DNA from: Henriciella sp.
GTDB lineage: Bacteria; Pseudomonadota; Alphaproteobacteria; Caulobacterales; Hyphomonadaceae
Assembly: GCF_029936995.1 (NCBI RefSeq)
Contig: NZ_JAPYRE010000002.1
Coordinates: 248,001-312,000 of the forward strand
Direction: 5' to 3'
DNA: 64,000 nucleotides
Shown here one piece after another: positions 27,217 to 29,628 of this stretch. The notes beneath the pieces were generated by a model. It was not told where the DNA came from and did not search any database. It saw nothing but the letters and a program-made list of their open reading frames with translations. How positions within the stretch are numbered: the stretch's first letter is position 1; every line of letters begins with the position of its first letter. Made by a program: the position numbers and the translations under genes.

Positions 27217-27298
27217 CAGACACTCTCCTCGGCTATTAGCTTAATTTCTAGCGGAATTCACGGCAGACAAAAAGAGAGCGCTAACATTTTTCTTGATT

Positions 27299-27325
27299 GA
27301 ACCTTTTGCCGGTCTGGGGCGACTA
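27299..27325 (+). promoter_or_regulatory. candidate sigma-type promoter of the ECF sigma gene
   Basis: GAACC at 27299-27303, a 16-base spacer and CGACTA at 27320-27325 sit 27 bases before the sigma factor ATG. The GAAC core and CG start agree with the two stronger sites at 28278 and 28882, and ECF sigma genes often autoregulate. The match is weaker than the other two. Confidence 0.45.
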
Positions 27326-27352
27326 TCGTGATATTGTTGAGGAAAGGCCCGA

Positions 27353-27901
27353 ATGGCCATGACGAATGATCCGGGCCGCATTTATGACGAGCTGCTTGTC
27401 ACGCTGGTGCGAACTGGTGACCGCGCGGCTGCCGAACGTCTTGCGGCGAGATGGTACCCGCGCCTGCTGCGCACGGCCCGGCGTCTGCTCCGCGATGACG
27501 ACCAGGCGCGTGAAGCCGTTCAGGAGGCCTGGACCGGAATTTGCCGTGGCTGGGTAGGGCTCGCAGATGCCCGGAAGTTTCCGGCCTGGGCCTTCTCGAT
27601 CCTGCATCACAAGTGTGCAGACCGCATACGTCATGAACAGGGAGGGCGCGCCCGGCAAACAGACCTGAACGGCTGTGAAACGGACAGGGCGGCCGCAGAC
27701 TCCGAAGTGCGCATGGCAATCAGTCAGGCGCTGGACCGGCTCAGCCATGATCACCGCGTCGCTGCCATCCTGTTTTTCCACGAGGGTCTGACCCTGTCGG
27801 AAATAGCTATTGCGACCGGCGTTCCAACGGGAACAGCCAAGTCGCGTATCTTTCATGCCCGCCGCCAGCTGAAGGCGGCTCTACAAGGAGACGAGAAATG
27901 A
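27353..27901 (+). CDS. ECF-type RNA polymerase sigma factor
   Basis: 182 residues with sigma region 2 (ERLAARWYPRLLRTARRLL, DDDQAREAVQEAW) and a region 4 helix-turn-helix near the C-terminus (LTLSEIAIATGVPTGTAKSR). No region 1 or 3, which is typical of the extracytoplasmic function class. GAGGAAAGG precedes the start; the second ATG two codons later is also possible. Its stop overlaps the next gene's ATG in a 4-base ATGA, so the small membrane protein is likely its partner or anti-sigma factor. There is no neighbouring nepR or phyR, so it is probably not the general stress sigma factor EcfG. Confidence 0.88.
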   Translation: MAMTNDPGRIYDELLVTLVRTGDRAAAERLAARWYPRLLRTARRLLRDDDQAREAVQEAWTGICRGWVGLADARKFPAWAFSILHHKCADRIRHEQGGRARQTDLNGCETDRAAADSEVRMAISQALDRLSHDHRVAAILFFHEGLTLSEIAIATGVPTGTAKSRIFHARRQLKAALQGDEK

Positions 27902-28266
27902 CGGAGATGGAAAAAAGGCTGCACACTGGTCTGAGCGAAGAGGATGAGGCGTTTCTTGCGCGACTTGAGGATGAGCCCGGCCTGTTTGCGCAACTTGGCG
28001 CCACATTCACCGGCTCGATGAAGTTCTGGACGGCCTTTGCGGTTGCATTGAGCCTGATCTTCTTCTTCGGCTCGATCTGGGCGCTATGGCAGGCTTCGGT
28101 AAGTGCAAATGCGCAGGAAGCGGTCGTGTGGACGGGTGGAGCCCTGGGGGCCTGGTTTGCGGTCGGTATGATAAAGATCTGGTTCTGGCTGCGGATGAAT
28201 CATCTCGTAACTCTCAAGGAAATCAAGCGGTTAGAGCTAAAAGTGTCGCAACTGAACACGTTTTAA
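27898..28266 (+). CDS. small inner-membrane protein coupled to the ECF sigma gene (DUF6768-like)
   Basis: 122 residues: an acidic cytoplasmic N-terminus (SEEDEAFLARLEDEPGLFAQ), two transmembrane helices at about 42-62 and 75-97, and a short basic tail. The architecture and position suit an anti-sigma or signal-relay protein, but it lacks the zinc-binding anti-sigma motif. The DUF6768 label is from recall. It overlaps the sigma gene by 4 bases. Confidence 0.75.
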   Translation: MTEMEKRLHTGLSEEDEAFLARLEDEPGLFAQLGATFTGSMKFWTAFAVALSLIFFFGSIWALWQASVSANAQEAVVWTGGALGAWFAVGMIKIWFWLRMNHLVTLKEIKRLELKVSQLNTF

Positions 28267-28277
28267 TTCTGGTTTCA

Positions 28278-28303
28278 GGAACGGGTTCAGGAGAGCGGTC
28301 GTT
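28278..28303 (+). promoter_or_regulatory. GGAAC-N17-CGTT promoter of the first acidic exported protein
   Basis: GGAAC at 28278-28282 and CGTT at 28300-28303 with a 17-base spacer match the -35/-10 pattern recognised by alphaproteobacterial EcfG-type or related ECF sigma factors. It lies in the 69-base gap after the membrane protein gene and about 33 bases before the ATG. Confidence 0.75.
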
Positions 28304-28335
28304 TGTTTGTCCAGCAGACGCGAAAGGAGACTGCC

Positions 28336-28740
28336 ATGAAACGCACACTGCTTACCGCTACCGCAGCACTGGCCTTTGCCGCAACGCCTGCCGTCGCGCA
28401 GCTTGTCGATGGTGATGCCGGTGTGACCGCTGAAACTGAAGTCACCACGGATACTGCCGATACGGCCGCAGACGTAACGACAGAAGTCGAGACCGACGTT
28501 CAGAAGAGCGACGACGCACAGCTCGACAGCGATATCGATTCTGCCGCAAATTCTGAAGCAGGCATCGGTGGAAACTATCACGAGAGTGAAGAAGATGCGG
28601 CTGCCGATTCCGAACTCAACACCGGTTCTGACGTTGATGTTCAGATAGATACGCCGGACGCTGAAACTCCGGATACAGACGTTTCTGTTGAGGGTGAAAG
28701 CGACACAGATGTGAGCGTCGATACTGAAACGCCTCAATAA
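28336..28740 (+). CDS. exported acidic low-complexity protein, paralogue 1
   Basis: 134 residues with a Sec signal peptide (MKRTLLTATAALAFAATPAV followed by AQ). The mature part is about 31 percent Asp plus Glu, with a single Lys, no Arg and no Cys, and many Thr/Ser/Ala/Val; it is probably disordered. The central GNY is shared with the paralogue 28942-29574. I do not recognise a family. ATG at 28336 has AAGGAG upstream; a longer start at 28303 would destroy the signal peptide. A terminator follows, so it is an independent transcription unit. Confidence 0.8.
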   Translation: MKRTLLTATAALAFAATPAVAQLVDGDAGVTAETEVTTDTADTAADVTTEVETDVQKSDDAQLDSDIDSAANSEAGIGGNYHESEEDAAADSELNTGSDVDVQIDTPDAETPDTDVSVEGESDTDVSVDTETPQ

Positions 28741-28787
28741 TAATGAGTTGGACAAGGATCGGCCTACAGGCTGATCCCTCGTTCCGG

Positions 28788-28823
28788 AAGCCCCGCGCGG
28801 CCTTGGCGGCCCGCGGGGCTTTT
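28788..28823 (+). terminator. rho-independent terminator after acidic protein 1
   Basis: AAGCCCCGCG (28788-28797) pairs with CGCGGGGCTT (28812-28821), followed by TTT. A second hairpin, GATCGGCC/GGCTGATC, precedes it at 28757-28776. Confidence 0.88.
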
Positions 28824-28881
28824 CGTGTGCCTGGAGCGCGAAAGCGCGAGGGAAACGTCAGGCAAAGGTAACAGGCCCAAA

Positions 28882-28906
28882 GGAACACCCTGTGGCAGCA
28901 TCCGTT
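28882..28906 (+). promoter_or_regulatory. GGAAC-N16-CGTT promoter of the second acidic exported protein
   Basis: GGAAC at 28882-28886 and CGTT at 28903-28906 with a 16-base spacer, about 36 bases before the ATG at 28942. Same pattern and same leader length as the promoter of the first paralogue, which supports common control. Confidence 0.78.
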
Positions 28907-28941
28907 ATTAAAGGTAAGCAACACCTGGAAAGGAGATTGCA

Positions 28942-29574
28942 ATGAAACGCACACTTCTTACGGCCACGACAGCGATCGCATTCGCCGCAATGCCGGCCAC
29001 AGCCCAGCTTGTCGGCGGCGACGCAGGCGTTACGACTGATACAGACATCGCCACCGATATTGGTGAGACAGCTGCGGAAACCGGTACGCAGGTCCGTTCC
29101 GACATTCGTACGGGTGTCGAAAACAATGCGGACGCCGCTGCTGAGTGGGAGTCTGACGCCGATGTGAATGCTGGCGTTAATGCAAATGCCCGTGTCGACG
29201 GGAATTATGAGAACGAGCAGGATACCGCAGCAGGTGCCCGGCTTGATACGCGCACGGATGTAAATACCGGCGCGACCCTCAACCGGGGCGCAGATACTGG
29301 CGCATCTCTCGCCGGTGAAGCAAACACCGGCCTTGATGCCAGAGCTGTGCAACAAAGTGCTGAAGGTGGCGCATATACAGAAAGCCGTGCAGATGCCACG
29401 GCCCAGTATCGCGACCGGACCACGATGGCCAATGGCGACGTATCAGCCAGGGTGGATAGTCTCGACACTGAAGAGCTTAATGCCTATGCCGCCGGACAGG
29501 TCAGGAAAGCAACGGGCGATGCATCTGTCGGCGCATCCAGTTCGCTCGAAACCGAAGCGGAAACCCGTTATTAG
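28942..29574 (+). CDS. exported acidic low-complexity protein, paralogue 2
   Basis: 210 residues. The signal peptide MKRTLLTATTAIAFAAMPAT followed by AQLVGGDAGVT is nearly identical to that of the gene at 28336. The mature part is rich in Ala, Thr, Asp, Gly and Asn, with quasi-repeats such as TDTDIATDIGETAAET and GADTGASLAG, but contains several Arg, unlike paralogue 1. The GNY motif and surrounding Asp/Glu stretch align. GAAAGGAG precedes the ATG, as in paralogue 1. Function unknown; probably periplasmic or surface. A terminator follows. Confidence 0.82.
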   Translation: MKRTLLTATTAIAFAAMPATAQLVGGDAGVTTDTDIATDIGETAAETGTQVRSDIRTGVENNADAAAEWESDADVNAGVNANARVDGNYENEQDTAAGARLDTRTDVNTGATLNRGADTGASLAGEANTGLDARAVQQSAEGGAYTESRADATAQYRDRTTMANGDVSARVDSLDTEELNAYAAGQVRKATGDASVGASSSLETEAETRY

Positions 29575-29596: not shown

Positions 29597-29628
29597 AGCC
29601 CCGTAGCTCTTCAAGCTGCGGGGCTTTT
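29597..29628 (+). terminator. rho-independent terminator after acidic protein 2
   Basis: AGCCCCG and CGGGGCT enclose AGCT/AGCT pairing, followed by TTTT. It sits about 20 bases after the stop codon at 29572-29574. Confidence 0.88.

Follow-up and report, generated by a model that had tools for sequence, protein, structure and literature searches.

The cassette described here lies within a 64-kb window (the whole stretch of DNA that was analysed) from a 3.4-Mb Henriciella genome (G000). It is most probably under divided control, with a probability of about 0.82: the local ECF sigma factor would serve its own operon, and the sigma factor EcfG would serve the two genes for acidic proteins that follow. 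As read from the sequence, the sigma gene and the overlapping DUF6768 gene would form an operon transcribed by its own sigma factor from TGAACCTTTT-N12-CGACTA, and the DUF6768 protein would most likely keep this sigma factor at the membrane until some signal. Each acidic gene would possess its own EcfG promoter, GGAAC-N16/17-CGTT, as a member of the PhyR-NepR-EcfG general stress regulon, having no need of the local sigma factor; at most, read-through from the sigma operon would add to acidic gene 1.

Organization of the cassette

The cassette is flanked by what we take to be a pyruvate-kinase-like gene on one side and an HNH-type gene on the other, and is composed of the following features:

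27298..27325, + strand: putative promoter of the sigma gene, class 1 (TGAACC at 27298-27303, CGACTA at 27320-27325, 16-base spacing)
27359..27901, + strand: ECF sigma factor gene (Pfam Sigma70_r2 9e-12 and r4_2 1.6e-8, above cut-off)
27898..28266, + strand: DUF6768 gene (PF20556, 2.8e-31), overlapping the sigma gene by 4 bases
28278..28303, + strand: predicted EcfG-type promoter of acidic gene 1 (GGAAC-N17-CGTT)
28336..28740, + strand: acidic protein 1 (134 aa, D+E 26%, K+R 2%)
28799..28820, + strand: terminator-like hairpin with a T run, 3' of acidic gene 1
28882..28906, + strand: predicted EcfG-type promoter of acidic gene 2 (GGAAC-N16-CGTT)
28942..29574, + strand: acidic protein 2 (210 aa, D+E 17%, K+R 8%)
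29597..29625, + strand: terminator-like hairpin of 12 pairs, 3' of acidic gene 2

The start of the sigma gene at ATG 27359 agrees with the starts of several relatives, ATG 27353 being the alternative, and TTTT opens the spacer of its promoter in the window sequence. Both acidic proteins have a signal-peptide-like start, noted by inspection for protein 1, and the family alignment identifies protein 2 as a paralogue of protein 1. The three boxes of the original prediction are all present in the window sequence, and its placement of them 25-40 bases before the start codons agrees with the distances of 27 (or 33 with the second ATG), 32 and 35 bases found here.

The stop codon of the DUF6768 gene and the ATG of acidic gene 1 are separated by 69 bases. 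Read-through into acidic gene 1 is possible, because a search for a terminator-like site between these two genes found none; the region as a whole holds four such sites against a shuffle mean of 2.4, which is weak evidence alone. This uninterrupted gap also favours a partial co-transcription of acidic gene 1 with the sigma-DUF6768 operon, where the gene would be fed by both sigma factors wherever both are present. Such an arrangement is compatible with divided control, but it is rather unlikely, considering that a promoter-like box stands before each acidic copy and that a terminator-like site precedes acidic gene 2.

Two promoter classes

Compared between genomes, the box of the sigma gene and those of the acidic genes fall into two classes, each conserved on its own. 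The idea that all three boxes possess the same core did not hold, as they have few letters in common. Exact GGAAC-N15..18-CGTT was found in none of 21 sigma upstream windows, and the 120 bases 5' of 17 acidic genes score 7-9 for the sigma motif, compared to 6-10 for shuffles. A single shared promoter class was thus ruled out, since neither class matches the motif of the other. Looking for the boxes in related genomes, as had been proposed, recovered the sigma box in 19 of 21 loci and the acidic box before 17 of 17 copies.

The sigma-gene box

For the sigma gene, the comparison covered 21 DUF6768 loci, 15 from the genus and six others from the order, a sigma ORF being located directly 5' of the DUF6768 gene in every one. 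Each was scored by the best TGAACC/CGACTA match within a 240-base region around the start of the sigma gene, with a maximum of 12. The full score was reached in 15 loci, 11 in four, 10 in one and 9 in one; thus, 19 of the 21 score 11-12, and 420 letter-shuffled windows top out at 10. The spacing is 16 bases in 19/21 loci, and among the genus members the spacer starts with TTTT in 14 of 15 and with TATT in the remaining one. Outside the genus, four of the six loci score above the shuffles, and the boxes of the other two (L031 and L034) are no better than these. In addition, 25 named loci show the sigma pattern in 20, a shortened GAACC..CGAC in three, none in one and a cut by the contig end in one, although many of them are the same contigs as in the 21-locus set and are not independent of it.

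The box is also highly specific to this place. A search of the 29 genus genomes for TGAACCTTTT-N12-CGACTA, tolerating up to two mismatches, gave 17 perfect sites, 16 of them at the sigma-DUF6768 place, lying about 600 bases 5' of the DUF6768 gene or, in G002, of its remnant. Besides this remnant, the sigma ORF was read in 13 of the 16, and G041 and G042 were assigned by their distance to DUF6768. The own genome carries the sigma site and two further sites with two mismatches each. With looser letters the signal is lost, as bare TGAACC-N14..18-CGACT is not enriched against a reversed control across 41 genomes. Since the box is conserved, it looks like an autoregulated promoter of the putative ECF sigma-DUF6768 operon. 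A literature search for TGAACC together with an ECF sigma factor found no paper.

The 17th perfect site, in G015, precedes a 171-aa ORF (L214 1739), and this ORF may be another target of the ECF-DUF6768 unit. One-mismatch sites in G001, G003, G014 and G022 were considered as signs of a wider sigma regulon and rejected, as they fall inside a coding region, presumably that of an RND-type membrane-fusion protein. Moreover, ECF-DUF6768 loci with the same box occur on two contigs labelled as Acidobacteria MAGs (L234 and L237).

The acidic-gene boxes

GGAAC-N16/17-CGTT stands 5' of all 17 acidic-gene copies in 14 genomes. In 16 of 16 copies the box starts 58-64 bases 5' of the ATG, and the 17th copy, in G009, begins 60 bases behind the start of its box. 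The spacer letters vary between species; the box letters themselves are fixed by the search pattern, so that the result is that every copy has a box, at one distance. When 120-base upstream regions were resampled by a Markov model, the box appeared in 32 of 32,000 trials.

The pattern by number is uninformative. The 64-kb window has two occurrences of GGAAC-N16..18-CGTT, compared to a shuffle mean of 1.16, and 33 of 100 shuffles reach two. Genome-wide there is no excess, with 49 sites for GGAAC-N16/17-CGTT and 71 for its reversed pattern; being below this control, the count was rejected as proof, and position was used instead. A box was counted when it lay 44-72 bases 5' of an ATG or GTG with a purine-rich, ribosome-site-like sequence and an ORF of at least 60 aa, the range having been chosen after inspecting 30 of the sites. 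Of the 49 boxes of the own genome, 21 are so placed, those of both acidic genes included, and 28 fail, compared to 0/30 reversed-pattern sites (30 of the 71 were examined) and 3/49 on the opposite strand; the difference from the reversed sites gives a Fisher p of 9e-6. The EcfG-type class is thus positioned as promoters in the own genome.

Other features of these leaders were observed. Of 16 leaders of acidic genes (L103-L115), 12 have a short hairpin-like AGC-N5..7-GCT stretch immediately 5' of the ribosome site; 47 other leaders with an EcfG-type box in the own genome all lack it, as do the two leaders of the window itself (28304-28335 and 28907-28941). Three further loci of the own genome (L001, L169 and L170, on contigs C1 and C11) encode proteins with the near-identical starts MEMKTSYWRF or MKMKTSYWRF, and an EcfG-type box precedes each of these genes by 66-69 bases.

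The acidic family is fast-evolving and confined to part of Henriciella. Among 200 genomes of the order, homologues outside the genus are mostly short, weak matches at the signal-peptide end. Candidates of 133 aa in G123 and G091 and of 170 aa in G150 have no box. Within the genus, G004 and G016 gave two further weak matches (E 9.8e-4) that cover just profile positions 1-26 and were discarded as due to the signal peptide. G150, from the same order, also encodes a different secreted-looking protein of 210 aa, with an EcfG-type box 64 bases 5' of it (L256 1074, reverse-strand count).

The general stress sigma factor as candidate regulator

The published EcfG promoter consensus, as given in a passage of PMC7083833, is GGAAC-N16-CGTT. 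The own genome encodes PhyR (PhyR_sigma-like 2e-17) and NepR (1.4e-14), and its EcfG was identified by gene place and sigma domains. No exact box was found before the own nepR-ecfG genes, the nearest being GGAAC-N15-GGTT. Five exact EcfG-type boxes lie no more than about 4.5 kb from the phyR-nepR-ecfG locus (L100 1937-11754), and two of these boxes pass the positional test. The own genome has 14 sigma-region-4 matches, among them EcfG, PhyR and the local sigma factor, and some other ECF factor could read GGAAC-CGTT. A literature search for EcfG together with Hyphomonadaceae found no paper.

Across the genus, NepR is matched at E ≤1.5e-12 in 14/14 genomes with the acidic genes and in 0/15 others, a threshold chosen after the table was seen; the best NepR match among these 15 has an E of 2.4e-10, and six have none. 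This coincidence follows one clade boundary, being supportive and not proof. Overall, the sequence evidence supports EcfG as the predicted regulator of the acidic genes. It had also been proposed that one sigma factor, either the local one or EcfG, drives all three genes; from this, EcfG stands for the acidic genes, and neither the local sigma factor for the acidic genes nor EcfG for the sigma gene was sustained.

The latter would be a cascade, where EcfG drives the sigma gene as well as both acidic genes. There is precedent in Caulobacter, where a passage of PMC8103513 gives sigU under SigT as a sigma gene under EcfG control, and the sigma box does have GAAC and CG in common with the EcfG type. 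However, this cascade is very improbable here: the sigma box has the form TGAACC-CGACTA, with GGAAC-CGTT missing from every sigma window, and this form is kept in genus members that have no strong NepR match. A cascade acting through some other box is conceivable.

Gene loss across Henriciella

The two halves of the cassette part in both directions, which does not agree with the compact module that was originally envisaged. As seen by a profile search that took in all 29 genus genomes, the acidic family is present in 14, adjoining the HNH-type gene in each. Eight of these 14 (G002, G005, G009, G011, G018, G019, G021 and G043) have no DUF6768 match, and no intact sigma gene was seen at this place in them; the acidic genes and their EcfG-type boxes nevertheless persist. 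In G002, what is left of the sigma-DUF6768 pair is the former sigma box with pieces of both genes, and the acidic gene next to them is intact and still has its own box. Conversely, DUF6768 is found in 11 of the 15 genus genomes that lack the acidic family. An ABC-transporter-type ATP-binding motif lies near it in the nine such loci looked at (for eight of them in the short loci, for G022 in the longer locus L241), and therefore DUF6768 occupies a different genomic place in these genomes.

The locus comparison included 26 loci besides the window, with G023 (weak match) and G042 (contig edge) left out. The locus pieces of G010 and G020 are short. G020 has the sigma pair at one contig end and the acidic gene at another, their adjacency being assumed, and in G009 no pyruvate-kinase gene is listed in between. 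In a tree built from 27 HNH-type protein sequences (G023 and G042 not among them; 3 of 23 inner branches well supported), the sigma-bearing G000 groups with the sigma-less G018 and G019, apart from the other five sigma-bearing genomes; therefore, at least two changes of sigma presence are indicated.

A self-contained module, with the local ECF factor transcribing both acidic genes as well as its own, is the least probable alternative. In its favour are the adjacency of the genes, the GAAC/CG letters common to the three boxes and the fact that ECF factors often regulate neighbouring genes; against it stand the acidic genes and boxes of those eight genomes, the deletion remnant in G002, two classes that fail each other's motif and the 11 genomes having DUF6768 and no acidic family.

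The DUF6768 protein

Under the divided control favoured here, DUF6768 is a candidate membrane anti-sigma factor, on the basis of gene pairing and topology. The protein has two hydrophobic segments, of which one is clear and the other marginal; its N-terminal part is acidic, with a net charge of -5 over 43 residues, and its C-terminal tail is basic (+3). Together, these features suggest that both ends lie inside. W78, K93, E113 and L114 are invariant in 18 DUF6768 sequences. In the literature searched, the name DUF6768 occurs in one paper, on a snail genome. Its AlphaFold2 model (mean pLDDT 82.7) has two long helices, 42-68 and 72-121, preceded by N-terminal helices at 3-10, 14-24 and 29-36 of lower confidence, the mean pLDDT of residues 1-40, taken in tens, being 51, 62, 70 and 81. 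A Foldseek search of the model against the PDB gave 139 matches, none with E ≤0.001; the best 50 of them are helical (encapsulated ferritins and ExbB/TolQ, for example), with no anti-sigma factor and no CnrY among these 50.

A joint and more tentative reading takes DUF6768 as the minimal anti-sigma factor of a self-restricted ECF group and the acidic proteins as lineage-specific EcfG stress effectors. DUF6768 would then consist of two membrane helices that carry a short helical segment at the N-terminus; the ECF group would have TGAACCTTTT-N12-CGACTA as its own promoter code; and the effectors would be secreted, probably disordered and fast-evolving, with a fixed EcfG promoter. Its probability was lowered slightly because the fold search gave no anti-sigma match.

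Comparison with known systems

If these assignments are right, natural gene loss can serve to distinguish ECF promoters that look alike, the ECF-DUF6768 pair gains a testable promoter code and the alphaproteobacterial general stress response probably has an orphan family of secreted acidic proteins among its products. The acidic genes resemble the EcfG (ECF15) general stress regulon of Alphaproteobacteria, having the same promoter as that given in a passage of PMC7083833 and PhyR, NepR and EcfG in the own genome. They differ from it in that the targets are a fast-evolving acidic family of part of Henriciella and that their boxes use both N16 and N17 spacing.

The sigma-DUF6768 pair, in turn, is similar to autoregulated operons of an ECF factor and a membrane anti-sigma factor, which likewise have a sigma gene followed by a gene for a small membrane-type protein, with a conserved box. 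Compared to these, DUF6768, with about 120 aa, consists mostly of two long helices with no identified anti-sigma domain, and its predicted regulon comprises nearly only itself. According to a passage of PMC7406223, anti-sigma stretches shorter than 50 residues may be class II, as in CnrY, which wraps CnrH with two helices. DUF6768 also has a short N-terminal segment. The likeness to this class is a lead only, as its model shows three short low-confidence helices instead of the two of CnrY. Taken together, the cassette is well supported as a known promoter logic that has been reassigned, and not as a new kind of system.
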